Below are positions 2,223-56,150 of a stretch of DNA of 64,000 nt, one piece after another. Numbering within the stretch: position 1 is the stretch's first letter; each line of letters opens with the position of its first letter. The stretch spans positions 65,437,922 to 65,501,921 of the forward strand of contig CP142456.1 of the NCBI GenBank assembly GCA_038049695.1, written 5' to 3'. The notes under the pieces were generated by a model, which was not told the origin of the DNA, did not search any database, and was given only the letters and a program-made list of their open reading frames with translations. A program made the translations under genes and the position numbers. Origin of the DNA: Cinnamomum chago. Taxonomy: Eukaryota > Streptophyta > Magnoliopsida > Laurales > Lauraceae.

Positions 2223-2304
2223 GTTTTTCCTTCTATTACAAGCACCATATTCATGTTACATATATACTCCCCGTCTAATAATAAACCTTTTTGTATCCAG
2301 AGAG

Positions 2305-6209: not shown

Positions 6210-6210
6210 T

Positions 6211-6223
6211 GCTAGTGGGAGTT
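6211..6223 (+). other. Copia polypurine tract
   Basis: GCTAGTGGGAGTT lies just downstream of the pol stop and directly before the 3' LTR start TGTTGGG. This is the normal place and sequence type for the plus-strand primer of plant Copia elements. Confidence 0.75.
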
Positions 6224-15990: not shown

Positions 15991-15995
15991 AGGAA

Positions 15996-16262: not shown

Positions 16263-16349
16263 GATTCACAGCTTTGAAAGCTTTGAAGGATACAAAGGCA
16301 CACTTTTTCCAAAAGATTCCACTTTCATTGATTTATCACTTGAGTACAT

Positions 16350-18130: not shown

Positions 18131-18262
18131 CTCTGCTGCCCCCAGTTCGGTATCGAGTAAGGTCGATGCCGAACTAGGAGAGGTGAATTCAACGATGAAA
18201 TCCACCAGAATTTGTGCTTTCATCGCCGTTTTGGGTTGATATTGGATATCGAATTGCCCCAG

Positions 18263-19524: not shown

Positions 19525-19567
19525 CAGGAAGTCGAGCAGTTCGGACTTCTCGTTGCCGGCATCGATC

Positions 19568-20350: not shown

Positions 20351-20399
20351 TGGCCCGTCGCTGTCTGATCATCATTGGGTGGCGGTGGTGGAGCGCATT

Positions 20400-22287: not shown

Positions 22288-22320
22288 GGCTTTCACTGGT
22301 CTGATTTTGGTAAAGATCCT

Positions 22321-22340
22321 ATCCCCACAGACGGTGCCAA
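22321..22340 (-). other. Primer-binding site of the Tat element
   Basis: On the minus strand TTGGCACCGTCTGTGGGGAT starts two bases inside the 5' LTR end (TTACA|G). It closely resembles the TGGCGCCGTCTGTGGG primer sites of Tat/RIRE2-type elements. It proves the element's orientation. Confidence 0.8.
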
Positions 22341-22341
22341 C

Positions 22342-23019
22342 TGTAAGTGCCTAAAAATTACGGACTTGGTTTGGAGGATTAAACTCTCAATTTGATGATT
22401 TAGGGAAAGGATCAACCTCCGGTGACCTGAAAGGAAGGAAAAGAAGAACCAATGTCAGAGCCCCTGGCTGTAGGTAGCCGAGGGCACTCCGATGGCTAAG
22501 TTAGCTTGGATATTGAGAGAAGAAGTAGGAAGAAGAAGTATGGGTCAGGCTTATTGCATACCTCCTGTCGTCTTTCTCCATGCATTATATAGACGTGGGA
22601 GCCTTGTTGGAGTGGACCCTTTGGGGGAGATGAAAGTCCCATCAGCATGTACCTTTCTCTCCTGAGTGGGGGTAGGTAAAAAGGGAACGTCCCATCAGAC
22701 CATCTCCCTATACCTATGGACGTGACCCTGAGATAAGGCGTGCCACTTATCTAGGTCCGGCGCCCACTCTATTTGTCAGTTCGTCATCCCCGTCACGGCA
22801 GCGCATTTATGGCTGCATTTATGGCTGAGTGACAGGAGACCGAGATAGGGTTAAAGACCGAGACCGAGGTGGATACTTGTGAACGTAGCCACCGAGATGG
22901 GATTCACGCTCGCCCCGAGATGGTGCTACTGCCGAGCTTGGACAACGCCGAGACTACGGATAGTCCGAAATCGGGGAGTGGCCCCACATAAATTCGTGAT
23001 TACAAAACGGCCCCACACA
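22342..23019 (-). repeat. Tat element 5' LTR (right copy)
   Basis: Near-identical partner of 11740-12406, ending CGGCCCCACACA before the TSD CTGTG. Differences are single substitutions and a short insertion near 22810. It is next to the PBS, so it is the upstream LTR. Confidence 0.9.
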
Positions 23020-23890: not shown

Positions 23891-24420
23891 GTAGCAGAGA
23901 CTGAGAGAGGTAGGTGTACCTGGCGGTGGCAGACTCCTGGATGGAGGATGATGGGCACAGATGATGGTGATTAGTGATGGTGGTTGCGTTTGGGAGTTCT
24001 AGGCGAGAGAGACTGAGAGAAGTAGAGATGAGAGGGATCACTGATCAGGGATGGGTCTGCACTGCGTGTGTTGATGGAGGGTGATGATGATTGATGGGGG
24101 TCAATGGGCCATGGGGCTGCTGCCTGAGACGATGGGTGGGAGATGTTAGAAAAGGGTTTTGGAAAATGGGGAAAAGGGTTCTTCTTTCCTCTTCTAGAAA
24201 AGGGTTTTGGAAAAGGGGGAAAAGGTTTTTGGAAAAGAGATACCGGGATAGATGGAGGGACAAAGGGGGAAATGGCTTTTGGAAAAGGGGCGTTGGATTG
24301 GGGGGGGGGGGGGGGGGGGATGGACGTCGTTAGGGCCTGGGGGAACCATTTTAGTCATTTTAAAGGCTTTTCCAAAACAATACTTGTAAGAGATGAATAG
24401 GCTCAAGTGCGAATGAAATT
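23891..24420. other. Non-coding region with G-run and GGAAAAGG repeats
   Basis: Purine-rich DNA with repeated GATGATGG-type words, several copies of AAAAGGGTTTTGGAAAA (24150-24290) and a pure G-run at about 24300-24319. Frames here come from low complexity. It may be internal sequence of the CACTA element that ends at 25343, but I see nothing that proves this. Confidence 0.4.
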
Positions 24421-25343
24421 AGCGCCATATTTTGTTAGCCGAAATATTTTCGCCTTCCACAACTTATCCTTATTAGTGACGAATTACGTTCGTTGCAAAA
24501 ATAAATTATATTTTGTGACAAAAATGTTCATCTCCAATGAGCTAAAATAATTCGCGCCAAAGCAAATGAAATTGGCGCCTTATTTTGGTGACGAAATATG
24601 TTCGTCTTCCATAACTTATCCTTATTAGTGACGAATTACGTTCGTTGCAAAAACAAATTATATTTTGTGACAAAAATGTTCATCTCCAACGAGCTAAAAT
24701 AATTCGTGCCAAAGAAAATGAAATTGGTGCCTTATTTTGGTGACGAAATATGTTCGTCTTCCATAACTTATCCTTATTGGTGACGAATTACGTTCATCGC
24801 AAAAACAAATTATATTTTGTGACAAAATTGTTCGTCTCCAATGAGCTAAAATAATTCACGCCAACGCAAATGAAATTGGCGCCTTATTTTGGTGACCAAA
24901 TATTTTCGTCTTCCATAACATATCCTTATTAGTGACGAATTACGTTCGTCACAAAAACAAATTATATTTTGTGACAAAAATGTTCATCTCTAACGAGCAA
25001 AAATAATTCGCGCCAATGAAAATGAAATTGGCGCCTTATTTTGGTGACGAAATATGTTCGTCTTCCATAACTTATCCTTATTGGTGACGAATTACGTTTG
25101 TCGCAAAAAAATATATTTTGTGACAACAATGTTCGTCTCCAATGAGATAAAATAATTGGCGCCAACGCAAATGAAGTTGGCGCCTTATTTTTGCAGACGG
25201 AATTTTTGCAAATGAAGTTGGCACTTTTGAAAAAAATGAGAACAAATGACAAAATTTTTATTTTGTCCTCTTTGGGTGTTCTTTTAAGACAAAAAAATTT
25301 TCGTCATCAAATTTCGTCACAACAGCCTAGATTTCTTGTAGTG
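24421..25343. mobile_element. Right end of a CACTA (En/Spm) DNA transposon with 152-bp tandem repeats
   Basis: The terminus TTTCTTGTAGTG (25332-25343) is the inverse of CACTACAAGAAA, the classic CACTA end. Inside it are about five 152-bp repeats: GTGACGAATTACGTTCGT recurs with GTGAC ending at 24480, 24632, 24784, 24936 and 25088, exactly 152 apart. Each unit includes TTCGTC/TTCATC words. Subterminal repeats of this sort bind transposase in CACTA elements. No matching left CACTA end and no transposase were found, so this is a fragment or non-autonomous copy. Confidence 0.75.
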
Positions 25344-35546: not shown

Positions 35547-35551
35547 CATAT
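35547..35551. repeat. Target-site duplication CATAT, left copy
   Basis: CATAT before TGTTAGAATTTTG, repeated at 42048-42052 after GACTTTTCA. Confidence 0.85.
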
Positions 35552-35945
35552 TGTTAGAATTTTGTAGATTGCAATTTGATGGATGCATAATCATTCAAGC
35601 ATCATTTGATTTACACTCATATGCATTGTTTTAAGAAATCTTGAAATCTTGTTTTATACATGCATTAGTTTTTAAGTCTTGAAGATATATTGATTTATGC
35701 ATGATTTGTTTTTGAATCTTGGATGCATTTGTTTTTTAAAAGAGTTTTAGAAAATCAAGCTAGCCTATGAGTTTTAAATCTTTCAAAATGTTTTAGGCTT
35801 TTTATGGTTCATGTTTTAAAACCCTTAGAATGATTTAAAATATGTTTTTTAAGATTGATTTAATGGCCCAAAAATCCCCTCCAAGAAAAACCTTCAAATA
35901 TGCAAAAGTTAGGGATTTTGGTCCCAGGGGGTCAATCTGCCATAT

Positions 35946-36120
35946 GGCCGGTCGACCGGCCCAGGGGACCCGGTCGACCCGCCACACTGTGCAGGTTGAC
36001 TGGGGCAAAGAGCCGTTGCTCTTCCAACGGTCACTTTTATGACCGTTTATAGCCAGGTCGACCGGGCCCTATTACCAGGTCGACCGGGGACTAGCCGTTG
36101 GGCTGTTTTGGCTATAAATA
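35946..36120 (+). promoter_or_regulatory. U3 promoter: GTCGAC palindromes upstream of a TATA box
   Basis: A perfect 16-bp palindrome GGCCGGTCGACCGGCC (35946-35961) is followed by CCCGGTCGACCC and two more CAGGTCGACCGGG words (36055-36090), then TATAAATA at 36113-36120. Spacing fits an upstream activating cluster of the LTR promoter. The right LTR keeps only the first palindrome. Confidence 0.6.
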
Positions 36121-36280
36121 TGAGTTCTTTCCTTTGCCAAAAGTTGGGAATTTTAAGGCCCTCCTTGAGGGGTTTTGAGGCAAATCAAAGGGAAATGAAC
36201 TAAGGATGAAGGGGATCATTAGGAAAACTAAAGCTTGGATTAATGAAGTTAAATCACCAAGTAGGCTCTACTTTCCTTAA

Positions 36281-36896
36281 TCATATGTTTTCATGCTTTG
36301 TTTTACTTTTGGTAAATCTTGTGTAGCATGATAAACTATGTATGAAGTGTTGTGTCCTTAACATGTTTTATGTTTTGAGTTGATTTATTGTTTTGGATAC
36401 ATCACCATTTGATTCAATCCAAGTAGTACTTTATTTTTGGTAAATCTAAGTAGATCATGTTAATGGAAGAATCTTTGAAATTATATGTAACATGATTCCT
36501 ATACTTAGTTGAATCTATGGTTGTTGTTTTTCAATATAAGAAAATCACTTTCAAAACTATCTTATGTTTTGGATTCAACATCTTTACAAATCATATGTTT
36601 TCATGTTTTTGCTTTATCTTTAGTAAAACTTTAGTAGCATGTTAAACTATGATGTGTTGTGTCCTAAGCATGTTTTATGTTTTGAATTTATCTATTGTTT
36701 TGGATGCATCACCATTGATTCAATCCAAGTAGTACTTTATTTGGTAAATCTAAGTAGATCATGTTAATGAAAGAATCTTTGAAATTATATGTAACATGAT
36801 TCATATACTTGGTTGAATCTTTGGTTGTTGTTTTCCATCATAAGAAAATCTCTTTCAAATGTATCTTATGTTTTGGATTCAACAAACTTTACAAAT
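36281..36896 (+). repeat. 310-bp tandem duplication in the LTR
   Basis: TCATATGTTTTCATG at 36281 recurs at 36591 and the following 300 bases match closely (CATCACC...ATTCAATCCAAGTAGTAC and so on); a third start, TCATATGTATT, lies near 36897. It is absent from the right LTR because of the deletion there. Confidence 0.85.
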
Positions 36897-37389
36897 CATA
36901 TGTATTATTGTTTTAAAGTTTCACAACTTGCCTTACTTTGATAGGTATATCATTTTCAAGTTGTATTTATAATTACATATGATTTGTCCCCTATTTTCAA
37001 TCAAATTTATTTTTATTTTTATGAGCTACATTGTTGATTTGATTGACATCCTTATGCTTCACATGTTTTGGTCTTTGAATTTTCACAACTTGTTTAGGAT
37101 ACAAATGTATATCTTTTACAAGTTAGTTTTAACATGTAATTAGCATTTCCTCAATCATAAATGTGTTATGAGCTAAAACTTTCAAAAGCCTTAGGCATAC
37201 ATTTATGAGCTTTCATTTTCAAAATGATTGAGGACATCACACACACACATCATGAGCATACATCTTTGCATTCATTTAGTGTTTGTATGAGTTAGTTTTT
37301 CACTTCCATATCCGCCTAATTAAGAGGCATTGTAATGAGCTTAATTGAATCTCCATTAAGTGTATTATAGACACTAATTAGAGAGATAA

Positions 37390-37545
37390 CCAACCTTGTG
37401 GTTGAAGAGGTTATTGCTTAGCCTTGCAAAGGATAATGTATAGGTTGATGTTAAGCCTTGAAAAACATCATTGTAAAGGTTATTGCTTAGCCTTGAAAAG
37501 CATATTGTAAAGGTTATTGCTTAGCCTATTGAAAAGCATAAATAG
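37390..37545 (+). repeat. Mini-array of hairpins with AGCCTTGAA loops
   Basis: Four to five hairpins in 150 bases: TTATTGCTT-AGCCTTG-type loops closed by AAGCATA, and GATGTT / AACATC closing the same AAGCCTTGAAA loop. The stem changes, the loop does not. The right LTR has the same set at 41655-41790. Confidence 0.7.
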
Positions 37546-37800
37546 TGGAAATCTGGTGGGGTATTGGATCACAAGCCAGTAGTGGATGTAGGCATTGAGG
37601 CCGAACCACTATAAATCCTTGTGTGATGGTGCTTGCTTTGTGGTGATTGTTTTCATTAAGCTTCCGCATTTTGTTTGAGAATCATCACTTGTGACTAGTT
37701 TGTTTTAAAGAAGTTAAAATTGGTTAAAATTGGTCATAAATGAAGCTCACCCTATTCACCCCCCCCCCCCCTCTAGGGTTCGGATCCCAGGACTTTTCAA

Positions 37801-37818
37801 TTGGTATCAGAGCGGGTT
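37801..37818 (+). other. Primer-binding site (initiator Met tRNA type)
   Basis: TTGGTATCAGAGCGGGTT lies one base after the LTR end TTTTCA. TGGTATCAGAGC is the standard complement of the plant initiator tRNA-Met 3' end. Confidence 0.85.
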
Positions 37819-37939
37819 ACTCCACTTTAGGGCTTAACAACCCGGAGTTGATCCTTGCTAGATTAGAACCCTGGTGTTGTGATTTATTGCATATTTTTGT
37901 GATGATTTCCACTATAATCGAAAATGAAATTTCCCCTAG

Positions 37940-40240
37940 CTTCTTGCACCACTCTAAGACTTTTTCAAGTTATATCTTCAAGAGTTGGTGAGTCCTCTAG
38001 TGAACTCTCAAGGACATCCTTTTCAAGAACTTAAGTGAATCTTCATTGGTACACATTTAGAATAACCTTAAGGCCTTGAACCTCTCTAGACCAACCTTTC
38101 CTTTATAGTTAAATCTTTGTGTTGGTTATGTTACATTTGCATTTCGTTTCTTTATAGTCACATCTTTTAAAATGCAATGTTTCTTTGTGATCATTTGATT
38201 TTGTCTTCATGAACTTTTAAGTTATATCTCATGGTTTTCAAAATCCTTTGATTGCAATATTTTCATGATAGATTTGCATTTTGTTCATATAGTTATATCT
38301 CTTGTAGTGCATATCTATTCATGATCAATTGATTGTGATTACAAAAGCTTTCATAGCTAGATTTTTCATGATCAATTGATGTTGGAAAATCATTTGATGA
38401 ATGTCTTAGTTAGATCCTTTTTGTAAATCAAATGATTTGAAGCAATTTAAGTTTTCCATTGATTTTCAAGTTATATCTCTTGGTATGGAAAATTCGTGAG
38501 TGTCTATTGTTTTACAAATTGAAAATTTTACAATAGTACACTTCTTGTTTTTCAAAATCACTTGCTCTTAATTCTCTAAATGATTCTTTATTGGAATTTC
38601 AAATATTGAAGTGATTTGAGAAACTTTGGAAAATGTTCTAAGCTTTATTGGTTGTATTTATAGAAGCATTTTCCTTGAATTTATTTCCTTGTGCTTATTT
38701 ATGATTATATCTTTTGAAAGGAAATAATTTTTACAAACAATTTGCATCTTTGCTCATTTAGTTACATTCTTTTTATGCAAATTGATTTTGATATCTTACA
38801 TTGCATGGTTGGATATATTTCATTGATTTGCATGTTTTTGCCTAACTTGGTATATTTTTTCATTAATGCAAATTGATGATTGTTTATGTGCTTTTTAGTA
38901 AAATATTTTGTTTTATTATCATTTGAGCCTAATAAGTACATATGCGATTTAATGTGCTAAGTTCATTTGGTATAAACCTCATATCCTTTTCCATTGCATT
39001 GTAAGCTTAGTACATTTGCTAAGAGTGGAGATGTTGCATGATAGATTGATCCCTTTAACTTCATACCTTCTTGTGCTTAAATAGTTATATTTTTTTTTCA
39101 TGATTGGTATGAGTTAGATCTTGAGTGTTGATTGATCCTCTCTATGCAAATGTCAAATCATTCTATGTATGGTTGTGATCTTAGTTATATTTGTAGAAAC
39201 CATACTAGAACTCAAATCCATCCTCTATGCACTCTAGTCATATCTTTTTGGATGGTTATGATGTTGATTCATGTATATTCTCTAAGTGATGTCATCCTTA
39301 TACATGTTTCAACTTCATAGTAGTGATCTTGATCATATGAAACTCTTTGAAATCCATTCCTCGTATTTTATATGTTTGATGGATATCTTAGATGTTGAAT
39401 TCATATGATTTAGTCACTTTGAAAATTGCATGCATTTCAAAGTTATATCCTTTTGCATTGCAATTAATCTTGTTCATCACTATGCTCAATAGTTATATCT
39501 TTAAAAGTGATGAATATGCATTTATGATGCTTGATGGAATTTTGTGTTTGTCTCATTCTTGCTCTCAATCATGTTGTCAAATTCAATTGATTTCAATTGG
39601 AATAATTTTCGATTGATTTGATTTCTTGTGAATGTGATAGACCTTGTGTACATTGGATTGAACTTGCTAAGTTATATGTTTTCATTCCATGTCACACACC
39701 ATTAGCATCATAATCTTCATGTTTGCCACCTCTCTTGCTCATATAGGTATATCTCATGACCACCATGTTTATGTGTTCATAATATTGGTTGGTTATTAGT
39801 TGAGGTTGGCTTCATGTTTGAACTTCATTTCACTCATCTTGCACTTAATAGTCATATTTTTTTGAATGAAATGATTTCAAAACTTACATAGCATATGTTT
39901 CTCATAGTTAAATTATTTGATGCTATGTTTAATAAACCCCATTTCATCATGGATAGCTCTAATTTGGATTTTTCCTAATAGTTATATTTTTAAATCCATT
40001 TTAGAGTGATTGTTTCAATAGAGTTATCCTTGAATCTCAATTGGTATTCTTTGTTTTTCCAATTGGTATCCATGATTGCTTTTCTCTTTGACCTTGCTCT
40101 CTTTTGGTAATTTGATCATATTGAGCTTTATAGTTATATGAATCTAATCTTTTCCTTGAAGTTGACCCTCATTTGGTTAAACCATCTTCTTCTTGCATCG
40201 AATAGTTAAATCTTTGTCAATATGTTGACAAAAGGAGAGA
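37940..40240 (+). repeat. Array of about 25-30 hairpins with conserved loop and variable stems
   Basis: No ORF. A loop core near TAGTTATATCTTTT, often preceded by TTGCTC/TTGCAC/GTGCTT, recurs about every 75-100 bases, and in most cases the sequences on both sides are complementary. Examples: AAATCATTTGAT 38387-38398 with 38427-38438; TTTTCCAT 38452-38459 with 38485-38492; TTATTTCCTT 38681-38690 with 38718-38727; CAATTTGCAT 38738-38747 with 38775-38784; CATTGATTTGCAT 38821-38833 with 38866-38878 (two G-T pairs); TTCATCACT 39473-39481 with 39506-39514; ACATAGCAT 39886-39894 with 39920-39928; CTCTAATTTGGATTT 39957-39971 with 39992-40006 (13 of 15). Function unknown. Confidence 0.8.
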
Positions 40241-40833
40241 ATGGAGTGAGGGGGAGTGTAAACCTTCATAGGAAGTATTAGTTTTGATCAAATTCACCCT
40301 TGGATTGCCTTTGAACCCTTAGAGATAACTTTCATACATGATAGCCTGTTATGTTTTTCATTTTCGATTTCTTTTGTTAACAGGTGCTACTAAAGGTATT
40401 TTCCTTATTTCATGTGTGTAGGTACCTTTGCAATTTAATGACAAAGGGGGAGAGAGAGCATTCAAGTTCTCAAAAGGGTGAAGAGACTGTCCAAGCTTCC
40501 TAAGGGGAGGTTTTGTATGATCTTCTACAGGGGGAGAGAATGCATATCTTGCCAAAGGGAGAGAGAGGCATGGTCAAAGGGGGAGAGCTAATAGAAGAAA
40601 GAAAGTTTGGAAGCTAAAGAAGATGCTTGGCTAAAGAAAGAAAGATTGAGGAATGATCAAGCTCCAAGCATCAAGAAGATTGAAGAGATTGAAGCCCAAG
40701 AGCCCAAGCTAAGAGAAGAAGCCTCCAAGAAGATTTCAAGACTTGTCCAGCTGAGGGGGAGCTGAAGACTAAGTGTGTCTATTCAGTGGTGAGTGTGGTG
40801 AGTGAGTTGTCATCAAATTGCAAAGGGGGAGAT
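40204..40833 (+). other. Purine-rich tail with repeated PPT-like motifs
   Basis: GGGGGAGA-type words occur at about 40250, 40443, 40529, 40556, 40577, 40752 and 40822, the last being the true polypurine tract next to the right LTR. Between them are AAGAAAG/GAAGAT-rich runs. No gene is supported; short frames are low complexity. Confidence 0.6.
40821..40833 (+). other. Polypurine tract of the hairpin element
   Basis: CAAAGGGGGAGAT directly precedes the right LTR start TGTTAGAATTTTG. Confidence 0.8.
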
Positions 40834-42047
40834 TGTTAGAATTTTGTAGATTGCAATTTGATGGATGCATAATCATTCAAGCATCATTTGATTTACACTC
40901 ATATGCATTGTTTTAAGAAATCTTGAAACCTTGTTTTATACATGCATTAGTTTTTAAGTCTTGAAGATATATTGATTTATGCATGATTTGTTTTTGAATC
41001 TTGGATGCATTTGTTTTTTAAAAGAGTTTTAGAAAATCAAGCTAGCCTATGAGTTTTAAATCTTTCAAAATGTTTTAGGCTTTTTATGGTTCATGTTTTA
41101 AAACCCTTAGAATGATTTAAAACATGTTTTTTAAGCTTGATTTAATGGCCCAAAAATCCCCTCCAAGAAAAACCTTCAAATATGCAAAAGTTAGGGATTT
41201 TGGTCCCACGGGGTCATTCTGCCATATGGCCGGTCGACCGGCCCAGGGGACCCTATGCTTGTTGTTGAGCTACATTGTTGATTTGATTGACATCCCTATG
41301 CTTCACATGTTTTGGTCTTTGAATTTTCACAACTTGTTTAGGATACAAATGTATATCTTTTACAAGTTAGTTTTAACATGTGATTAGCATTTCCTCAATC
41401 ATAAATGTGTTATGAGCTAAAACTTTCAAAAGCCTTAGGCATACATTTATGAGCTTTCATTTTCAAAATGATTGAGGACATCACACACACACACACATCA
41501 TGGGCATACATCTTTGCATTCATTTAGTGTTTGTGTGAGTTAGTTTTTCACTTCCATATCCGCCTAATTAAGAGGCATTGTAATGAGCTTAATTGAATCT
41601 CCATCAAGTGTATTATAGACACTAATTAGAGAGATAACCAACCTTGTGGTTGAAGAGGTTATTGCTTAGCCTTGAAAAGCATAATGTATAGGTTGATGTT
41701 AAGCCTTGAAAAACATCATTGTAAAGGTTATTGCTTAGCCTTGAAAAGCATATTGTAAAGGTTATTGCTTAGCCTATTGAAAAGCAAAAATAGTGGAAAT
41801 CCGGTGGGGTGTTGGATCACAAGCCGGTAGTGGATGTAGGCATTGAGGCCGAACCACTATAAATCCTTGTGTGATGGTGCTTGCTTTGTGGTGATTGTTT
41901 TCATTAAGCTTCCGCATTTTGTTTGATAATCATCACTTGTGACTAGTTTGTTTTAAAGAAGTTAAAATTGGTTAAAATTGGTCATAAATGAAGCTCACCT
42001 TATTCACCCCCCCCCCCCCTCTAGGGTTCGGATCCCAGGACTTTTCA
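40834..42047 (+). repeat. 3' LTR of the hairpin element, 1 kb internal deletion
   Basis: It matches the left LTR at both ends (TGTTAGAATTTTG, GACTTTTCA), but at 41250 it jumps from CCAGGGGACCC directly to GAGCTACATTGTTG, skipping about 1.05 kb that holds most GTCGAC words, the TATA box and the 310-bp duplication. Since LTRs are identical at insertion, the loss happened afterwards in this copy. Confidence 0.88.
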
Positions 42048-42052
42048 CATAT
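42048..42052. repeat. Target-site duplication CATAT, right copy
   Basis: It follows GACTTTTCA and matches 35547-35551. The Ogre-like LTR resumes behind it with more GGGCGC-type words at 42150-42270. Confidence 0.85.
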
Positions 42053-44758: not shown

Positions 44759-44763
44759 CATAA
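44759..44763. repeat. Target-site duplication CATAA, left copy
   Basis: CATAA before TGTTAGACCCCG; its partner CATAA is at 55263-55267 after GGTCGCGACA. Confidence 0.88.
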
Positions 44764-47611
44764 TGTTAGACCCCGACCCAAACCAAGTCGATTAGTGTGC
44801 GATTAGTATGTGTTTAGTCCTAAGTGGGTTTAGTTGGCGTGGGGTTAGAAGTAATGAGTTTTAGTCTTGGACATAGCTTTGGGAATTTTGAGAACGTTTA
44901 GTATTACTTAGACACACTCAGGAAGATTTGAGTGCACGTGTGAGCTTGGGAAGATAGTGTTGGGTTCCGTGTGATTGTGGTTTTGATTTCATTTGAATGA
45001 TGTTTCGACGTGTTGCAACTTTCGTTTTAAGCATATTCATATTTGAAGCCCAAAAACCCATGTTTTGGCACAAAGAGGGTAAAATTGTCTTTTGTGCACA
45101 AATCTGGACACAATTTTTGAGATCTCAAAATCATATCAAAAATATACTTTTTGGAAACTAGATATTTCGACGATCGTTTTATCCTTCTTCGTCGAAGTCA
45201 TCCAAGGCCAACAAGTTAGTGTTTTGGCCATTTCAAAGTTCAGGTTATTTGGGGCTCATTGCCTCACTAAAGCCCCATCTCCCTCTTCCTTTTTCATTCA
45301 TTTCCCCAATCTCTACAATCTCTTAACCTAGGGCAATGAAAGCTCTTCTTCTCTTCAATCTTCTTCATCTTGCATGCTTGGGCTAGAGAGCTCCAAAAAG
45401 AATTCCAAAGTCATCATCTTCTTCATCTCCTTGCAAGCTCTCTATCAATACAAGTTTCTTTGAGCTTCTTGTGGATCAAGCTCTACATTTCTCCATTTTC
45501 TTCTTGTTTAGCCATTGTTAGGTAAGAGTTTCAACTTATAATTTTCATGGAGTTATTTTGGTACCTTAAGATCTTGTTTTTCAATTTGGAAAACCCTTGT
45601 TGTTCAAATGGGTTCTTTGTTTTCATTGTTGAGTGAGTTTGTGTGGTTTTTCTCTTGGGTTTCTTGTAGTGTGAGAATAGCTTGAGGAAGAGTTTGAAGA
45701 GGAGTATTGTTAGCATTGGTTAAGGCAAGTAATCTCTATAGGAATGATGCATGTATATTTTGATTTCATTGTTGTTTTAGAAATTGTGCATAAAATTTGT
45801 TTACAAGCTTCATGAATATGTTTTATTTGATTTTGATGCTTGACATGGTGATAAATTAACCCTTGGTGAGCATGAAGGCTCAAGGGATTATGTGTGATTG
45901 ATGGATGAGAAGAAGAAGAAGAATGTGGTGAAAGATGTGTAAAAAAAAGACAGTTTCTGCACTCAGCGAGCACAGGCAGCAACTTGCTCGCTCGAGCGAC
46001 CCCTTGGTTCGCTCGAGCGACCAAGCCTCTATTTGGTCTGAGCGCAGACAGAGAGCTGTCCGCTTGAGCGACCCTATGGTTCGCTCGAGCGAACTTCCCT
46101 CTGTATTATTTGGAACAAGACAGTGAGCTGTCCATTCGAGCGCACCTTATATCCGCTCGAGCGAAGTGTCTCGCTCGAGCGAAGTGTCATCAGTTTATAA
46201 AGTTCGCTCGAGCGAACCTGCCAGATTCAGGAAGAAGAATTTATTTCTTTTCTGTATTTTCTCAAAGGTTGAAAACTAGACTATGTTAAGGGTTTTGACT
46301 TGACATTGTGTAAATGGGACTGCGAAATACAACCCAACTTCGGGGACACCAATTCTTATATATATTCCGACATTTGGAGTCTTAATTACACAAAGGTCAA
46401 TTAGCAGCCTTAACACATGCTTGTCAGACTTCGTGTTTGAATTCCGTTTTGGTGCGATAAATACCATCGTGTACTAGTTTTGGATTTCCAGTATAAGCTT
46501 GTTTTGAAGTTTTGTTTCAAGAAAAAGGGGATCACTTCCTAAGCGTGTTATGCATATTTATTATGCCCTTGCTAGTCGTGTTCATCGTGTTTTGATAAGT
46601 GATACCCCCTTTTTTTATCTCGACAAGTTTTGTTAATATCTCGCGTGTTTGTGCATTCATGAATTAAGTAAACACCACTGAGCGTAGACTGCCCTTTCAG
46701 TTTAATCCACTGTCTGGGGGTCTTTAAACATGTGGACTGTCTGCAGACTGGTCGTGTATTTATTACACATCGTCCGTGTCCGGTTCCGCGGCCGGAATTC
46801 CCGTCTTTGTGGGAAATCGTGTCGTGCTTATATTATGTATATCGTGCTTGTCGTGCGTGCTTGCTCTTTTCATTATATAAATGATAGAGAAATGATGGGC
46901 TCTTTGTGGATGATAATTATTCATGATATATTATGTACTCATGCTAGTTTGTTTTAGTATCTCAGCTCGATTAGATATTTTTGCAAATATACCTCAGTCA
47001 TCATAGTATTTCAATTCAAGGATTTGCTTACATGTTTTCTTCAAACGCTATTATTCATGTTCGTGCCTAAATTGATTACCTGCCAAACCGTTGTGTTTGA
47101 CCCTTATTCGTTGGTGCCCAGGTGCAGGAGACGTTACCTTTGAGGAGGAGCGTCAGGAGGAGGCTTCTGAGCCAACCCCTGTGAGAGAATGGCAGCCCGA
47201 CGATGTCATCTAGACGTCGGGCGGGTTCTTGAGTCTCGTCACCTTTTTGGTCATGGGGTTTCTTTTGGTTATATTTTGGAGATGTGTATTGGCCTCTATT
47301 GGCCTCTTATGGGTTGTAACAAAACTTAATTTACTTTCGTGTTAGTTTTATAACTTGAACTATGTCGGGAATGCCATTTCAACTTCTTCCTTTGATATTG
47401 TGTCTTGTTACTATTTATCAGGGCACCTAAATATGTTATTGGTGCTCATCTTGTGTGTTTGCTACACGCTTCCGCATATTTGATCGTGTGAGTTAGATTC
47501 GGCGTGTCTTTGGGAATCCTCACCGCGGAAACCTGTGGGAAAGCAAAATCTTCAATAGTAGTTGTAACAATCTACGTCGCGGGCCCGGGGTCTCGTTCCG
47601 GGGTCGCGATA
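44764..47611 (+). repeat. Tekay element 5' LTR (2848 bp)
   Basis: TGTTAGACCCCGACCC to GGGGTCGCGATA; the last CA has become TA here, while the 3' LTR keeps CA. It carries six TCGCTCGAGCGA-type palindromes (45988-46217). Short frames inside are not genes. Confidence 0.92.
45986..46217. repeat. TCGCTCGAGCGA palindrome cluster in the 5' LTR
   Basis: Perfect palindromes: TCGCTCGAGCGA at 45988-45999 and 46009-46020 (the latter in a 21-bp near-palindrome TTGG...CCAA), GTTCGCTCGAGCGAAC at 46079-46094 and 46202-46217, and GCTCGAGC cores at about 46154 and 46172. TTTATAAAG lies just before the last one. The 3' LTR has only four (53688-53867), some mutated. Confidence 0.85.
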
Positions 47612-47615
47612 GCAC

Positions 47616-47632
47616 TGGTATCAAAGCGGGAC
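47616..47632 (+). other. Primer-binding site of the Tekay element
   Basis: TGGTATCAAAGCGGGAC, four bases after the LTR end, fits the initiator Met tRNA primer (usual TGGTATCAGAGC) with one change. Confidence 0.8.
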
Positions 47633-47770
47633 ATGTTTCAGGCACTTAAAAGAAACTAGAAAGATCTTAGGAACGTGGCGAGGATTCGAGAGTTCGATGA
47701 TTCATTGGTATAGGGTCTTAGAAACCCTTGTACTATGTTATTGTGTTCTAACTCTTTGTTTTACAGCAAT

Positions 47771-48970
47771 ATGCCTCCAAGAAAAGCTTCAAATCATCAT
47801 GCTTCAGGCAGTAATCAAAATGAGTCAGATGCATATGAGACACCTACAGCCACACAGTTTCAGGAACTCATGCAAGCAATGATAGCACAGCAAAGGCAGG
47901 CTAATGAGAACCAAGCCAGGTTTCAAGAACAGTTGGCTAAGAAGGATGATGAAATGGCTCAAGTTCAGAGGCAGTTGTTGGAAGTACTTCAGAACAGGAA
48001 CGTAGCACCACCCGTGGATCCACGGATTGTTATTCAGAATAGGGATCCTGACCCTAATGCACTATTTGAAAATTTTAGAAAGAGGGCACCGAAGGAGTTT
48101 TCGGGCAATGAGGACCCGTTAGTGGCAGATGACTAGCTAGTCAATACGGAGAAGATCTTTGATGTCTTCATGTGCACGGGTATACAGAAAGTCAACCTCA
48201 CAGCTTCCTTATTCTATGGACTTGCAGATAGGTGGTGGCAAACAGTCAAGGATCCTTATGCAGTGATGGCAGATGAAAAGGCATGGGTGGGCAGCATTCA
48301 AGATACAATTTCAGGATAAATATATTCCCTCTCATGTCAAGAGGCAGAAGGCTATTGAGTTTCAGCAACTCAAGCAGGGTAGCATGACGGTTTTAGACTA
48401 CGTCACCAAGTTCGAAAGATTGGCTAGATATGCCACCGAGCTGATTGACACTGAAAGGAAGAAGATAACAAAGTTTTTGGAAGGATTGAACCCGATCATC
48501 ATGAGAGATGTCATAGGAGTAGTACCTCCAGCTACATATGATGAGGCAGTCAAGCGGGCTTATACCTTTGAAGATATTAACAACATGATTGTTCAGGACC
48601 GGAAACAGCAATATCAACGGCAGAATCAGAGGCAACAGCAGGGCAAGAAACCAAGGCAAGAACAAGGTCATGTGAGGCAGGGTTGTGGCCATTGTGGCAA
48701 GAATCATGAGACACACGAATGTTGTAAGGCCATGGGTGCCTGTTTCAAGTGTGGGGCTATGAACCATTCAATCAAGGATTGCCCACTACTTCAGAATCAA
48801 GGGAACAGAAACCAGCAGCAGAGACAAGTAGCTCCTCAGAACCAACCACCAATGCAGAATCAGATGAGACCACCTCAACAGCAACAACAGCAGGCTAGGC
48901 AACCAGCACAGAATCAGAATGCTCGTCCTCCACAGCAGAACAGACAAGGCCAAGGAAGGCAGAACCAAGT
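47771..48970 (+). pseudogene. Gag of the Tekay element
   Basis: ATG 47771 (MPPRKASNHHASG) starts a capsid/nucleocapsid protein. A helical Gln/Glu-rich stretch (47850-47990) is followed by the core (FRKRAPKEFSGNEDPL, then in another frame [36 protein letters not shown]) and two Cys/His clusters; [14 protein letters not shown] is a CCHC knuckle. A TAG at 48134-48136 (usual Trp) and a frameshift near 48285 destroy the frame. After 48273 the frame is open through to RT. A Gln-rich linker leads to protease. Confidence 0.88.
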
Positions 48971-50867
48971 ACCGAACAGACTACAGATGCATGGACGTTT
49001 GTACTATCTCAACCGTGCAGATGCTGAAGCTGCAGGAGACGTGGTAGAAGGTAAACTTCTTGTTTGTGGGGTAGAAGCCCAGATTTTATTTGATCCTAGA
49101 TCCACACATTCCTTTTCATCTCCTAGTTTTGCTAAGTTAATTGATGCACCATGTAGTGAGTTGGATTACATTTTGGTAGTGACCACTCCAGTAGGGAAGC
49201 AAGTTGTGTGTAGAAACCATTACCCTAGTTGTACAGTGTTGTTAGGAGATGTTAATTTACCGGCCAAGCTCATAGTTTTGGACATGCATGATTTTGATGT
49301 CATATTAGGCATGGATTGGTTAGAAGCATATCACGCCACCATGGATTGTTTTAGTAAGACCATCACATTCAGATTCCAAGGACCACAGGCAGAGTTGATA
49401 TTTCAGGGGAACAGGAGGAAATCTCAGGCAGGGTTTATTTCAGTTTTGAAAGCAAGCAGATTAGTGCAGAGTGGATGTCAGGCATTTATTGCGTTTATCA
49501 CGGAGGATAAACAGTCCCAAGGGGTGGAGGATATCCCCATTGTGTGTGAATTTCCGGATGTTTTTCCAGAAGAAATCCCGGGTTTACCACCAATTAGAGA
49601 AGTTGAGTTCACGATTGAGCTCCTTCCAGGGACAGCTCCGATCTCGATTGCACCATACAGGATGGCCCCAGCAGAAATGGGTGAGCTAAAGCTCCAATTG
49701 CAGGATTTGTTGAGCAAAGGCTTTATTAAGCCAAGTGTTTCACCGTGGAGAGCACTGGTGTTGTTTGTGAAAAAGAAGGATGGAAGTTTGAGAATGTGTA
49801 TAGACTACCGGAAGTTGAACCATGTGACTGTGAAGAACAAGTATCCATTGCCAAGGATAGATGAATTGTTTGACCAATTGCAAGGAGCAGCCTATTTTTC
49901 CAAGATAGACTTGAGGTCAGGGTACCACCAGTTGAGAGTTAGAGACTCAAATGTTCAGAAGACAGCCTTTAGAACAAGATATGGGCACTATGAGTTCTTA
50001 GTGATGCCCTTTGGTTTGACAAATGCACCCGTAGTCTTTATGGCTTTAATGAACAAGGTCTTTGCACCCTATTTGGATCACTCCACAGTAGTATTTATTA
50101 ATGATGTCCTTGTGTATTCCAAGAGTAAGAAGGAACACGAAGAACATTTGAGGACAGCGTTGCAGCTCTTGAGGGACAACCAATTATATGCAAAACTCAG
50201 TAAGTGCGAATTCTGGTTAGAGCAAGTCGTTTTTTTAGGCCACATCATCTCCAGAGAAGGTTTAGCACTTGATCCAGCTAAGATAGAGGCAGTTGTTAGT
50301 TGGGCAAGACCAAGCAGTGTGACAGAAATTAGAAGCTTTTTGGGGTTAGCAGACTACTACAAAAGATTTGTCCAAGGTTTTTCGTCCATTGCAGCCCCGT
50401 TGACAAAATTGACTAGGAAGAATGTTCCATTTGTTTGGACCGATCAGTGTGAAATCAGTTTTCAAGAGTTGAAAGGAAGGTTAACCACAGCCCCAATTCT
50501 TACATTACCCTCGAGCAGCGGTGGATTTATTGTTTATACAAATGCTTCGAATGTGGGACTAGGTTGTGTATTGATGCAGGATAGCAAAGTTATTGCTTAT
50601 GGCTCGAGACAGTTGAAGGACCATGAGAAGAACTATGCGACTCACGACTTGGAGTTGGCAGCAGTTGTTTTCGCATTGAAGATGTGGAGACACTATCTCT
50701 ATGGAGAGAAGTTTGAAGTTCATTTCGACCACCGAAGTTTGCAATACCTGTTTTCGCAGAAGGATTTGAACATGAGGCAGAGACGGTGGATGGAGTATAT
50801 CAAAGATTATGACTTTCATCAAATATCATCCAGGCAAAGTGAATGTGGTAGCAGATGCTTTGAGTAG
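48971..50867 (+). pseudogene. Protease, reverse transcriptase and RNase H of the Tekay element
   Basis: It is in the same frame as the 3' part of gag. The protease active site reads [10 protein letters not shown] where D-S-G is expected, so it is dead. The RT has [44 protein letters not shown] and [15 protein letters not shown], but the catalytic motif reads FINDVLVYS (AAT at 50100-50102 in place of Asp). RNase H has [18 protein letters not shown] (first Asp of the D-A-S motif also changed to Asn), [20 protein letters not shown] and [12 protein letters not shown] frameshift near 50815-50830 separates it from the integrase frame ([16 protein letters not shown]). Confidence 0.9.
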
Positions 50868-52431
50868 GAAATCAGTGGCTATGGCTAATTTGAGAGGAAT
50901 TAGTGTCTTACAGCAGTTTGAAGAGTTTGGTGTAGAGGTACAAACCCTAAGATTGGGTGCGATGTTAGCAAACATGACAGTTTCAGAACCTACCTTCATC
51001 TAGAAGATCAAGGAAAATCAGTTGCAAGACCCAAACTTGGCTAAGATAGTGGAAGTTATTGCAGAACGCCCCGATTTCAAGATGGTGAATGGAATATTGT
51101 ATTTTTGTGACCGGTTGTGTGTACCAAATGTGGATGATTTGAAGAATGAGATAATGAATGAAGCTCACAGCACTAGATATTCTATGCATCCGGGTAGAAC
51201 GAAGATGTACCATAATTTGAAGAATAGATTTTGGTGGAACAACATGAAGAGAGAGATAGCAGCTTTTGTGTCTCGTTGTCTAACTTGTCAGTTGATCAAG
51301 GCAGAGCATCAGAAGCCTCCAGGTTTGTTACAGCCTTTGGAGATTCCGGAGTGGAAATGGGAGCATATCACCATGGATTTCGTTTCCGGTTTGCCGAATA
51401 CTAAGAAGGGAAATAATGCGATTTGGATTATTGTGGACCGTTTGACAAAGTCTGCTCATTTCATTCCGATGAAGACAGGGAACATGATGCATATGGCACC
51501 ACTGGCGAAGTTATTTGTCGATGAGATTGTTAGTAAACATGGTCAGCCCGTCTCCATTACTTCAAACAGAGACAGTAGGTTTGTTTCAAAGTTTTGGAAG
51601 ACTCTTCATGAGTCGATGGGTACCAAGCTCCAGTTTAGCACAGCTTATCATCCTCAGACAAATGGTCAGTCAGAAAGGACGATACAGACTCTCGAAAACA
51701 TGTTGCGTGCTTGTGTATTAGATTTCAAGATTCAGTGGGATGAGTGCTTACCTCTTTGTGAATTTGCCTATAACAATAGTTACCACTCGAGCATCGGTAT
51801 GGCACCTTTTGAGGCACTTTATGGTAGAAGATGCAGAACTCCGGTTTGCTGGGAAGAAGTCGGTGAACGTAGTTTTCATGGACCGACGATAGTTGGAGAG
51901 ACAAGTGACAAGGTCAAGCTGATTCAGGAACGGTTGAAGATCGCCCGAAGTAGATAGAAGAGTTATGCAGATACTCACAGAAGAGAATTGCAGTTTCAGG
52001 TGGGTGACAAAGTGTTTTTGAAGATCTCACCAGCTAGAGCGACTTTGAGATTCAGATAGAAGGGCAAATTGTCTAAAAGGCTTATTGGTCCGTATGAGAT
52101 TTTGAGCAAGATTGGAGATGTCGCTTATAGACTTGCGTTACCGCCGGAACTCTCCGGGGTACACAATGTTTTTCATGTTTCGATGCTCAAGAAGTATGTT
52201 TCCAGTCCTACACACATTCTACAGCATGAGCCTTTGGAAATTCGGGAAGATGCCTCGTATGTGGAAAGACCGATCAAGATCATTGACACCAAAGAGCAAG
52301 AATTGAGAAACCGGACTATTCATTGGGTCAAGGTACTTTGGGAAAATCACGAGCCAGAGGAAGCCACCTGGGAATTGAGAGAACAAGTGCAGATGAAGTA
52401 TCCACAGCTTTTACCAGAGGTAATTGTTTGA
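50868..52431 (+). pseudogene. Integrase with chromodomain-like end of the Tekay element
   Basis: The frame holds the linker, an HH-CC zinc finger (HSTRYSMHPGRTKMYHNL...CLTCQ), then the core: first Asp in ITMDFVSGLP, second Asp changed to Asn (AAC 51565-51567, SNRDSRF), and Glu in HPQTNGQSERTIQ. The C-terminal part has KLSKRLIGPYEIL, GVHNVFHVSMLKKY and a chromodomain-like VKVLWENHEPEEATWE, typical of Tekay. Stops TAG at 51001, 51955 and 52057 break it. It ends at 52431. Confidence 0.9.
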
Positions 52432-52454
52432 TTTATTTGGTGGACCAAATATCC

Positions 52455-52468
52455 TAAGGGGTGGAGGA
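52455..52468 (+). other. Polypurine tract of the Tekay element
   Basis: AAGGGGTGGAGGA directly precedes the 3' LTR start TGTTAGACCCCG. Confidence 0.75.
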
Positions 52469-55262
52469 TGTTAGACCCCGACCCAGACCAAGTCGATTAG
52501 TGTGCGATTAGTATGTGTTTAGTCCTAAGTGGGTTTAGTTGGCGTGGGGTTAGAAGTAATGAGTTTTAGTCTTGGACATAGCTTTGGGAATTTTGAGAAC
52601 GTTTAGTATTACTTAGACACACTCAGGAAGATTTGAGTGCACGTGTGAGCTTGGGAAGATAGTGTTGGGTTCCGTGTGATTGTGGTTTTGATTTCATTTG
52701 AATGATGTTTCGACGTGTTGCAACTTTCGTTTTAAGCATATTCATATTTGAAGCCCAAAAACCCATGTTTTGGCACAAAGAGGGTAAAATTGTCTTTTGT
52801 GCACAAATCTGGACACAATTTTCGAGATCTCAAAATCATGTCAAAAATATACTTTTTGGAAACTAGATATTTCGACGATCGTTTTATCCTTCTTCGTCGA
52901 AGTCATCCGAGCCCACAAGTTAGTGTTTTGGCCATTTCAAAGTTCAGGTTATTTGGGGCCCATTGCCTCACTAAAGCCCCATCTCCCTCTTCCTTTTTCA
53001 TTCATTTCCCCAATCTCTGCAATCTCTTAACCTAGGGCAATGAAAGCTCTTCTTCTCTTCAATCTTCTTCATCTTGCATGCTTGGGCTAGAGAGCTCCAA
53101 AAAGAATTCCAAAGTCATCATCTTCTTCATCTCCTTGCAAGCTCTCTATCAATACAAGTTTCTTTGAGCTTCTTGTGGATCAAGCTCTACATTTCTCCAT
53201 TTTCTTCTTGTTTAGCCATTGTTAGGTAAGAGTTTCAACTTATAATTTTCATGGAGTTATTTTGGTACCTTAAGATCTTGTTTTTCAATTTGGAAAACCC
53301 TTGTTGTTCAAATGGGTTCTTTGTTTTCATTGTTGAGTGAGTTTGTGTGGTTTTTCTCTTGGGTTTCTTGTAGTGTGAGAATAGCTTGAGGAAGAGTTTG
53401 AAGAGGAGTATTGTTAGCATTGGTTAAGGCAAGTAATCTCTATAGGAATGATGCATGTATATTTTGATTTCATTGTTGTTTTAGAAATTGTGCATAAAAT
53501 TTGTTTACAAGCTTCATGGATATGTTTTATTTGATTTTGATGCTTGACATGGTGATAAATGAACCATTGGTGAGCATGAAGGCTCAAGGGATTATGTGTG
53601 ATTGATGGATGAGAAGAAGAAGAAGAATGTGGTGAAAGATGTGTAAAAAAAAGACAGTTTCTACACTCAGCGAGCACAGGCAGCAGCTTGCTCGCTCGAG
53701 CGAACCGAGCGCAGACAGAGAGCTGTCCGCTTGAGAGACCCTATGGTTCGCTCGAGCGAACTGCCCTCTGTATTATTTGGAACAAGACAGTGAGCTGTCC
53801 GTTTGAGCGCACCTTATATCCGCTCGAGCGAAGTGTCATCAGTTTATAAAGTTCGCTCAAGCGAACCTGCCAGATTCAGGAAGAAGAATTTATTTCTTTT
53901 CTGTATTTTCTCAAAGGTTGAAAACTAGACTATGTTAAGGGTTTTGACTTGACATTGTGTAAGTGGGACTGCGAAATACAACCCAACTTCGGGGACACCA
54001 ATTCTTATATATATTCCGACATTTGGAGTCTTAATTACACAAAGGTCAATTAGCAGCCTTAACACATGCTTGTCAGACTTCGTGTTTGAATTTCGTTTTG
54101 GTACGATAAATACCATCGTGTACTAGTTTTGGATTTCCAGTATAAGCTTGTTTCGAAGTTTTGTTTCAAGAAAAAAGGGATCACTTCCTAAGCGTGTTAT
54201 GCATATTTATTATGCCCTTGCTAGTCGTGTTCATCGTGTTTTGATAAGTGATACCCCCTTTTTTTTTATCTCGACAAGTTTTGTTAATATCTCGCGTGTT
54301 TGTGCATTCATGAATTAAGTAAACACCACTGAGCTTAGACTGCCCTTTCAATTTAATCCACTGTCTGGGGGTCTTTAAACATGTGGACTGTCTGCAGACT
54401 GGTCGTGTATTTATTACACATCGTCCGTGTCCGGTTCCGCGGCCGGAATTCCCGTCTTTGTGGGAAATCGTGTCGTGCTTATATTATGTATATCGTGCTT
54501 GTCGTGCGTGCTTGCTCTTTTCATTATATAAATGATAGAGAATGGATGGGCTCTTTGTGGATAATAACTATTCATGATTTATTATGTACTCATGCTAGTT
54601 TGTTTTAGTATCTCAGCTCGATTAAATATTTTTGCAAATATACCTCAGTCATCATAGTATTTCAATTCAAGGATTTGCTTACATGTTTTCTTCAAACGCT
54701 ATTATTCATGTTCGTGCCTAAATTGATTACCTGCCAAATTGTTGTGTTTGACCCTTGTTCGTTGGTGCCCAGGTGCAGGAGACGTTACCTTTGAGGAGGA
54801 GCGTCAGGAGGAGGCTTCTGAGCCAACCCCTGTGAGAGAATGGCAGCCCGACGATGTCATCTAGACGTCGGGCGGGTTCTTGAGTCTCGTCACCTTTTTG
54901 GTCATGGGGTTTCTTTTGGTTATATTTTGGAGATGTGTATTGGCCTCTGTTGGCCTCTTATGGGTTGTAACAAAACTTAATTTACTTTCGTGTTAGTTTT
55001 ATAACTTGAACTATGTCGGGAATGCCATTTCAACTTCTTCCTTTGATACTGTGCCTTGTTACTATTTATCAGGGCACCTAAATATGTTATTGGTGCTCAT
55101 CTTGTGTGTTTGCTACACGCTTCCTCATATTTGATCGTGTGAGTCAGATTCCGCGTGTCTTTGGGAATCCTCACCGCGGGAACCTGTGGGAAAGCAAAAT
55201 CTTCAATAGTAGTTGTAACAATCTACGTCGCGGGCCCGGGGTCCCGTTCCGGGGTCGCGACA
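52469..55262 (+). repeat. Tekay element 3' LTR (2794 bp)
   Basis: Near-identical to 44764-47611, ending GGGGTCGCGACA. The main difference is about 50 bases missing in the TCGCTCGAGCGA cluster at 53700, so it has two fewer palindromes. Confidence 0.92.
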
Positions 55263-55769: not shown

Positions 55770-56150
55770 ACATTGCGTTATCACCGATGCTATATCACTT
55801 ATTTTAGATTGCTAGGGTCATCACCACCTCGGACTTAGAATCTTTTCCAGAGAATGCCTGAAAAAAGTTACAACTTTTCGTCAGAAAAATAGAAAAGTAC
55901 GTATGTTGGTGATGACCGACCTTATTTTACACTACTAAGGTCATCACCGACCCCGACTTAATTTTTTTTTTTTTCTGAGAATGCCTAGGAAAGTTACAAC
56001 TTTTTGTAAAAAATATAGGAAGTCTGCGTTGGTGATGACCTTATTTTACACTGCTAGGATCATCACTAACCCTGACTTAAAATCTTTTTTCAAGAACAAC
56101 TGGAAAAGTTACAACTTTTAGTATAAATAAGGTCGGCACCAACGATGTGC
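55770..56150. repeat. About 120-bp tandem repeats, three copies
   Basis: TTTTAGATTGCTAGGGTCATCACC (55802), TTTTACACTACTAAGGTCATCACC (55924) and TTTTACACTGCTAGGATCATCACT (56044) recur at about 120 bp, each followed by GACTTA, an AT-run and GAAAAGTTACAACTTTT-like words. A partial relative lies in the left arm near 43320. They look like subterminal repeats of a DNA transposon. Confidence 0.7.

Follow-up and report, generated by a model that had tools for sequence, protein, structure and literature searches.

Why should a long terminal repeat (LTR) element that encodes no protein carry some twenty short hairpins that share a loop motif and differ in their stems? The question is raised by a 64,000-nt stretch of the Cinnamomum chago genome (assembly GCA_038049695.1, contig CP142456.1, positions 65,437,922 to 65,501,921 of the forward strand; hereafter the window), in which such a hairpin array occupies the internal domain of a non-coding LTR element. 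How plant LTR retrotransposons choose the RNA that they package, and how gene-less copies spread, is poorly known, and the array offers a compact and testable feature: about 21 natural hairpin variants per copy, many copies that record the tolerated changes, and a candidate reader encoded next to it in relatives. The array is almost certainly real and under selection. As for its function, we tentatively propose, with slightly less than even confidence, that a Gag-type protein may read it, for packaging or assembly, as an RNA signal dispersed over many sites.

Flank pairing at the loop motif

A preliminary description of this locus, made from the letters of the DNA, reported an array of hairpins with a conserved loop and mutually unrelated stems at 37940–40240. 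At up to two mismatches the loop core, AGTTATATCTTT, has 18 sense matches at 37,900–40,260 and no antisense match inside the array; the other ~61.6 kb of the window contain 12 sense matches. The array holds 18 perfect Watson-Crick stems of at least 8 bp with loops of 10–60 nt, a density that none of 200 dinucleotide shuffles equalled (3.4 ± 1.8, maximum 9), and five perfect stems of at least 10 bp (shuffle mean 0.35). The array is thus present where it had been reported. Eleven of the fifteen stems listed at that time recur among the perfect stems, whole or as their perfect part, and the remaining four (37947, 38951, 39218, and 39957) also read as described.

The decisive test kept the motif sites fixed and compared the pairing of each left flank with its own right flank to its pairing with the right flanks of other units. 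At the 18 motif sites the mean score is 18.25 for own flanks and 11.7 ± 0.9 for swapped flanks (z 7.2; 0 of 20,000 permutations), and a stem score of at least 18 is reached at 11 of 18 sites versus 6% of non-cognate pairings. Control stretches upstream and downstream of the array gave z values of −0.9 and −0.6, and in upstream and downstream stretches none of nine core matches of the same quality reaches a score of 18. In a looser initial test, 9 of 28 sites scored higher than 95% of their own swaps (mean 19.8 versus 15.1 ± 0.6).

A unit usually has the order arm, 8–14 nt, core, 0–7 nt, and complementary arm. The set annotated for the later tests comprises 21 units and 220 pairs (Table 1), and in a local RNA fold its stems have a mean pairing probability of 0.76, with 19 of 21 above 0.5. 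The stems mostly differ between units, as first described, but they are not wholly unrelated: eight left-arm pairs have a 7-mer in common, where spacer segments predict 3.4 (a count of eight is attained in 8 of 300 controls), which hints at an old duplication. A search of Rfam returned nothing at the curated threshold. Two sub-threshold matches (E up to 1), to MIR395 (24.1 bits, cut-off 56) and SNORD51 (24.6 bits, cut-off 50), were taken as chance.

Conservation of the arms across genomic copies

In the 1.06-Gb host assembly the 14-mer TAGTTATATCTTTT occurs 758 times, versus 110 for the reversed control, and three genome searches returned 4,505, 6,006, and 5,916 first-look family candidates, of which 40 per search were scored. 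We retrieved 58 loci that surround a match to the motif or the array; for L002, no similarity was found. The counting set holds 40 of the 58 arrays, namely 37 main copies, the window, L022, and L009, and leaves out L029 (the window's own copy), L005 (the same place as L009), L010, L026, and near-duplicates (more than 80% shared 12-mers). The diverged sample consists of five loci, of which three are closely related, and the array is present in three subfamilies.

Pairwise per-site diversity among the 37 main copies, from which the window is left out, amounts to 0.0328 in the arms, 0.0794 in the spacers, and 0.0985 in the loop outside the core. The arm value lies 2.4-fold below that of the spacer and below 0.0538, the minimum among 2,180 circularly shifted annotations; arms are less diverse than loops in 20 of 21 units, and less diverse than spacer for A, C, G, and T alike. 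Twelve units defined from L060 alone, a copy of another subfamily, gave 0.043 for arms, 0.0705 for spacer, and 0.093 for loop. These results bear out the earlier suggestion of selection on the stems: the other copies mostly keep them, and the free decay that had been named as a refuting outcome is not seen. The LTRs of the window element differ by about 2%, so that much of the 3.3% arm diversity may reflect decay after insertion.

Within the core, positions A0, G1, T2, A4, and T7 are the least variable (0.033–0.057 each, 0.049 together), whereas T3, T5, and T9–T11 vary more than spacer. The core of unit 38,628–38,674 was set 6 bases too far upstream in the unit table; omission of this unit gives a range of 0.035–0.057 for the five constrained positions and 0.0918 instead of 0.0921 for the core.

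Covariation and rebuilt stems

The array stems covary modestly across copies. Where both partners of a pair have changed relative to the window, 42 of 52 cells still pair; six slid controls yielded 15–24 such cells, 6–13 of them pairing. Counted as distinct events, 15 of 25 double changes pair versus 4–10 of 14–22 in ten slides. Transversions on both sides (A-T to T-A and T-A to A-T), which have no G-U intermediate, account for some of the double changes. In unit 38185–38257, a T-A pair is A-T in 3 of 37 main copies and a G-C pair is A-T in L022, and the end pair of unit 39886–39928 is T-A in 19 of the 37 other copies, unpaired T-T in 8, A-T in 4, and a gap in 6.

The clearest cases of covariation are whole stems that have been rebuilt between subfamilies. 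Unit 38,677–38,731 reads TTATTTCCTT/AAGGAAATAA in the window, CATTTCCTTTTCT/AGAAATGGAAATG in L022, and TACTCATTTCA/TGAAATGAATA in L009. The swap test is passed individually by L022, L059, L060, and L009, four copies from two diverged subfamilies (z 7.1, 7.0, 7.6, and 5.8; 0 of 20,000 each). In a further test, native stems were scored against chimeras with the window copy. Native means of 20.1 (L022), 21.1 (L059), and 20.9 (L060) exceed those of the window chimeras (19.2, 20.0, and 19.8), the opposite of what neutral decay predicts. L059 and L060 equal the window (20.9) in stem strength, and L022 nearly does. A sum-of-chimeras statistic was discarded in favor of this direct comparison because its score floor biases it upward.

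Gag-type reading frames beside the array

Gag-type frames stand beside four arrays. In L022, an open frame of 517 residues between the primer site and the array encodes a CCHC knuckle and a long stretch that resembles a coiled coil, and a frame of the same type lies just upstream of the array in L057 and, in pieces, in L056 (the coiled coil was assessed by eye in all three). Over the queried part, the arrays of L056 and L057 are 94% and 92% identical to that of the window. The L022 and L057 frames have a ratio of nonsynonymous to synonymous substitution rates (dN/dS) of 0.43 over 401 codons, in this one pair, and are constrained. The array of L009 is adjoined by a zinc knuckle and a Retrotran_gag_2 domain (E 4e-27), which lie in separate broken pieces.

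In 31 of the 58 loci, including the window's own copy and one element twice, an exact primer site leads directly into the array; elements that are gene-less in this way, like that of the window, number 29 others. Within the fetched stretches, these copies retain LTRs, primer site, array, and polypurine region.

Two database proteins resemble the L022 frame (65–66% identical), and a comparison of this frame with solved structures gave no match at E 0.01. No relative of the Gag-type protein was found among viral contigs. A motif scan of these contigs returned at least 120 stretches, each with a single exact motif among the matches listed; they were taken as chance. L026 was considered as an autonomous relative and rejected: its RVT_2 frame is followed by its own polypurine-like sequence and a foreign LTR start (TGTTGGG) before the array, and probably belongs to a neighboring copia element.

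At positions 4762–6779 of L009 (minus strand), Retrotran_gag_2 and the zinc knuckle lie upstream of a region that matches the L022 frame, which suggests that the L009 lineage has a long, two-part Gag-type region.

A proposed packaging signal

In the reading that we favor, the array would act in cis as an RNA domain within a retrotransposon family of Sirevirus-like (Ty1/copia) type. The transcript would form about 21 short hairpins, each of which displays the loop motif AGUUAUAUCUUU, with stem sequence free and pairing selected. The candidate reader is the CCHC/coiled-coil Gag-type protein encoded beside the array in relatives, and many weak sites together may lead to packaging of the RNA into virus-like particles or to its assembly on Gag. 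The retention of LTRs, primer site, polypurine tracts, and array by copies that lack any gene would follow from such a signal. That the array acts at the RNA level is likely, in view of the single motif orientation, the long loops, and the mean local pairing probability of the stems. If Gag does read the array, the idea of multi-site packaging extends from viruses to plant retrotransposons; if it does not, a selected RNA structure is left without an explanation.

A number of observations weigh against this reading. With respect to the stems, the main copies alone provide 6 of 8 distinct double events that pair, barely over the best of twelve slides (5 of 6), and the chimera test had no effect in three main copies (native 21.0–21.6, chimera 21.1–21.6). 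The supporting loci L022, L059, and L060 are closely related, with ~94% identity in the two pairs computed. In L009, 4 double changes are paired versus 7 broken, and native stems (17.9) are weaker than those of the window and slightly under their chimeras (18.4). By unit, native stems lie above/below chimeras in 9/5 cases in L022, 8/7 in L059, 8/5 in L060, and 8/9 in L009.

With respect to loop and fold, the core as a whole is as variable as spacer (0.092 versus 0.079), so that the conserved loop of the preliminary description holds for the five constrained positions only, and it is the arms that are conserved across copies. Windowed folding energy is ordinary (mean z −0.98 in the array, −0.84 upstream, −0.34 downstream, and −0.99 in the 5′ LTR). 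Sliding-window folding, which had been put forward as a check, does not distinguish the array from the upstream control, and an energy test by itself would not have revealed the array. Among one-sided changes, G-U is not clearly commoner than A-C (49 versus 41 cells; 32 versus 28 distinct), and since pairing in sense RNA should favor G-U, this speaks against RNA. When the array was searched with a loose motif in antisense, a weaker pairing excess appeared (z 4.1), largely from the same sites, as the motif is nearly palindromic. The coding control, a loose motif search in the L022 frame, gave a weak excess (z 2.8; 99 of 20,000). Finally, no pol was seen in the window element or its array-bearing relatives within the stretches covered, and no dedicated search for a partner was completed.

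A broader form of the proposal can also be put. A plant retrotransposon family would package its RNA through some twenty Gag-binding hairpins, the array alone would suffice to make an internally deleted transcript a parasite of Gag, and the fast-evolving linkers of Sireviruses at large would hide similar arrays, conserved in structure and not in sequence. We consider this doubtful as a whole.

Alternative explanations

The foremost alternative is that the RNA hairpins are selected for a role outside packaging, such as dimerization, localization or export, control of translation or stability, or the binding of a host protein to the loop. The structural evidence fits it equally well, and the Gag-type frame that adjoins the array in four relatives would make a plausible target for translation or stability control. 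However, the window copy and the 29 other frame-less elements still keep the array, and control of an adjoining gene is thus not the whole reason for it; a single dimerization or export element would presumably need fewer than ~21 dispersed copies. We regard a role of this kind as rather unlikely.

Inverted repeats that act as DNA, bound by protein or extruded as cruciforms, in chromatin or transcription would be comparable to the repeated motif (RM) boxes of Sirevirus LTRs. The unclear G-U preference is compatible with such a role, and palindromic DNA boxes are a known trait of Sireviruses, both in their LTRs and near the envelope-like gene, in the available part of the published account (PMC2829016). 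Yet the array motif has one orientation at up to two mismatches (18 versus 0), its loops measure ~25 nt, and its stems are unlike between units, whereas the RM boxes given there are short, alike within an element, and mostly of the CGG-CCG type (PMC2829016, Table 3). A DNA-level role is accordingly improbable.

More improbable still is that the hairpins feed, or are fed by, host silencing, with small RNAs cut from the stems. Stems of 7–19 positions with 20–40-nt loops are poor Dicer substrates, there is no Rfam match at the curated threshold, and silencing would select against such stems, yet the arms are conserved. In favor, a maize study, in the part available, links small RNAs to hairpin-forming regions of both genes and transposons (PMC10760457).

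That the array is a by-product, either of chance palindromes, which do arise in AT-rich sequence, or of functionless template-switch copying that makes or repairs hairpins, as the double changes that bypass G-U would allow, is the least probable explanation, as chance is ruled out by the shuffles and flank swaps and arm-to-arm copying alone should leave the substitution rate of the arms unchanged, whereas they are 2.4-fold less diverse than spacer.

Comparison with known systems

The marks of Sireviruses include polypurine octamers, a AGGGGGAGATTG junction, an inverted repeat around this junction, a poly-C tract, and a CGGTCGACCG box, according to the part of the published account available (PMC2829016), from which the Sirevirus features below are also drawn. 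The window element shares the repeated AGGGGGAG octamers, six of which cluster before the 3′ LTR, as well as the AGGGGGAGATTG junction, and the inverted repeat that borders its polypurine tract re-enters the 3′ LTR. The last octamer (40824) is followed by AT and the 3′ LTR, which gives a AGGGGGAG-AT/TG junction at 40824–40835, and the rest of the 64 kb contains two further octamers on the plus strand and none on the minus strand. A poly-C tract lies close to the LTR end. The RM box CGGTCGACCG, identical to the consensus given for a Vitis element (PMC2829016), is rare in the window: its exact form occurs once per LTR (35949 and 41231), and the 5′ LTR has imperfect copies close by (family D7); this copy number is low, as 13 of 21 published Sirevirus elements have an LTR repeated motif with a CGG-CCG core in at least 8 copies (PMC2829016). 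Sirevirus Gag is large, with a CCHC knuckle and a coiled coil, and the relatives of the window element, though not the window element itself, encode CCHC and coiled-coil-like proteins. The chief difference is the absence of pol as far as seen. We take the window element to be Sirevirus-derived and non-autonomous. The word “hairpin” does not occur in the available part of the Sirevirus account, where the structures named are the polypurine-tract repeat and, at the border of gag and pol, an inverted repeat (PMC2829016).

With its LTRs, primer binding site, polypurine tract, and long internal domain devoid of coding capacity, the window element has the make-up of a large retrotransposon derivative (LARD). 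As described in the available part of the LARD literature (PMC7215508), such elements likewise have a non-coding internal domain between LTRs, proteins supplied in trans, and well-conserved RNA structure; a repeated loop motif or an array of separate stem-loops is not described for them there. A LARD family has no coding member, whereas L056 and L057 carry Gag-type frames. Terminal-repeat retrotransposons with a GAG domain (TR-GAG) have LTRs and a Gag reading frame without pol, and a hairpin array is not known to be part of their definition. L009 and, in part, L022, L056, and L057 resemble them in this respect; the window copy, which lacks Gag, does not.

With regard to function, RNA viruses and hepatitis B virus have packaging signals that consist of several to many dispersed stem-loops with a common loop motif, in the available parts of the sources (PMC6281560, PMC3593212, PMC7612645). 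Repeated stem-loops with a common loop motif likewise occur in the window and in diverged copies of the array. The viral signals are read by a coat or core protein, whereas here the array is non-coding and sits in a plant retrotransposon, with Gag as the candidate reader. In Ty1, also a copia-type element, RNA structure is tied to packaging (PMC5454406, PMC4974528, as available in part); the cis-acting sequences named for it lie at the 5′ end, whereas here ~21 units extend across the internal domain. No description of an array of this kind was found in searches of the open-licence literature.

The host element

The LTRs, the target-site duplication, and the lack of a long frame confirm that the window copy is a non-coding LTR element, as had been described (Table 1). 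Five stop-to-stop frames of at least 70 aa lie inside it, of 71–88 aa, and a Pfam scan of four of the five gave no match. The 5′ LTR contains ~1.05 kb (35972–37021) that is absent from the 3′ LTR (compared at 41253–41266) and includes a ~310-bp tandem duplication, 88% identical; as LTRs should match at insertion, the difference in length reflects a subsequent deletion or unequal exchange.

Table 1. Positions of the element, its hairpin units, and its terminal features in the window.
Feature	Position	Strand	Sequence	Remark
Whole non-coding LTR element, 6,496 bp	35552..42047	+		LTR pairing, ends read directly
Target-site duplication, 5 bp	35547-35551 and 42048-42052		CATAT	flanks the element
5′ LTR, 2,248 bp	35552..37799	+
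Unit-like hairpin in 5′ LTR	36923..36964	+	ACAACTTG / loop with AGGTATATCATT / CAAGTTGT
Primer binding site	37802..37813	+	TGGTATCAGAGC	2 bases past 5′ LTR end; presumably of initiator-Met tRNA type
Hairpin array, 21 annotated units	38089..40006	+		sense; weaker motif copies stretch to about 37940-40240
Unit	38089..38127	+	GACCAAC/GTTGGTT	lengthened in diverged copies by more pairs (TGACCAAC/GTTGGTCA)
Unit	38137..38177	+	TTGCATTT/AAATGCAA
Unit	38185..38257	+		imperfect 19-position stem
Unit	38267..38319	+	GATAGATTTGCATT/AGTGCATATCTATT	stem absent in L022, L060, L182; weak in L009
Unit	38324..38380	+	ATCAATTGATTGTG/CATGATCAATTGAT
Unit	38387..38438	+		perfect 12-bp stem; remodelled in L009 (AAATCATTTGT/ACAAATGATTT)
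Unit	38450..38494	+	AGTTTTCCAT/ATGGAAAATT
Unit	38628..38674	+	GGAAAATG/CATTTTCC	window core decayed; L003 and L004 closer to consensus
Unit	38677..38731	+	TTATTTCCTT/AAGGAAATAA	stem remodelled in L022, L059, L060, L009, L182
Unit	38735..38787	+	CAATTTGCAT/ATGCAAATTG	L009 counterpart CAATTTGCTT/GAGCAAATTG
Unit	38820..38879	+	CATTGATTTGCAT	stem of 14 positions including two G-U; weak in L009
Unit	39060..39113	+	TTCATACC/GGTATGAG
Unit	39167..39205	+	GTATGGTT/AACCATAC
Unit	39212..39261	+	CAAATCCATCC/GGATGGTTATG
Unit	39349..39387	+	GAAATCCAT/ATGGATATC	in L022 perfect stem longer, core near-exact
Unit	39424..39465	+	AATTGCA/TGCAATT	both arms longer in L009 (AAATTGCATA/TATGCAATTT)
Unit	39471..39516	+	TGTTCATCACT/AGTGATGAATA	core exact; stem identical in L022 and L060
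Unit	39654..39689	+	TGGATTGA/TCATTCCA	weak in L022, L060
Unit	39820..39878	+	TCATTTCACTCA/TGAATGAAATGA	stem longer in L059, L060 (score 33.5)
Unit	39886..39928	+	ACATAGCAT/ATGCTATGT	window end pair A-T
Unit	39957..40006	+	CTCTAATTTGGATTT/AAATCCATTTTAGAG
Six polypurine octamers	40249..40831	+	AGGGGGAG	at 40249, 40445, 40529, 40578, 40754, 40824
Inverted repeat around polypurine tract/3′ LTR junction	40811..40863	+	CATCAAATTGCAA (40811-40823) / TTGCAATTTGATG (40851-40863)
3′ LTR, 1,214 bp	40834..42047	+		98% identity to corresponding 5′ LTR parts

The inverted repeat around the polypurine tract/3′ LTR junction resembles an array unit in its geometry, with a long stem and a 27-nt loop, but this loop lacks the motif; it is possible that the repeat and the array units share a logic.

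Other features of the genome and window

Members of the family also occur head to tail at near-constant spacing at C1:60549363-60585832, C1:75936918-75978498, and C1:50552964-50574490 (G000), with examples of eight motif matches exactly 5,208 bp apart and nine array matches about 5.0–5.1 kb apart. These are repeated LTR-internal units, as in Cassandra in the available part of the account (PMC7215508).

Three further repeat-bounded elements lie in the window: a copia element with a gag-pol frame that runs into RVT_2 (1764–6680), a gypsy-type element with 2.85-kb repeats (44763–55260), and a third repeat pair that encloses broken minus-strand pieces of a gypsy-type pol (11740–23019). Tandem repeats are found at 24412–25191 (152 bp × 5.1), at 45989–46188 (palindromic units of CGCTCGAGCGA), and at 55798–56090 (119 bp × 2.4).

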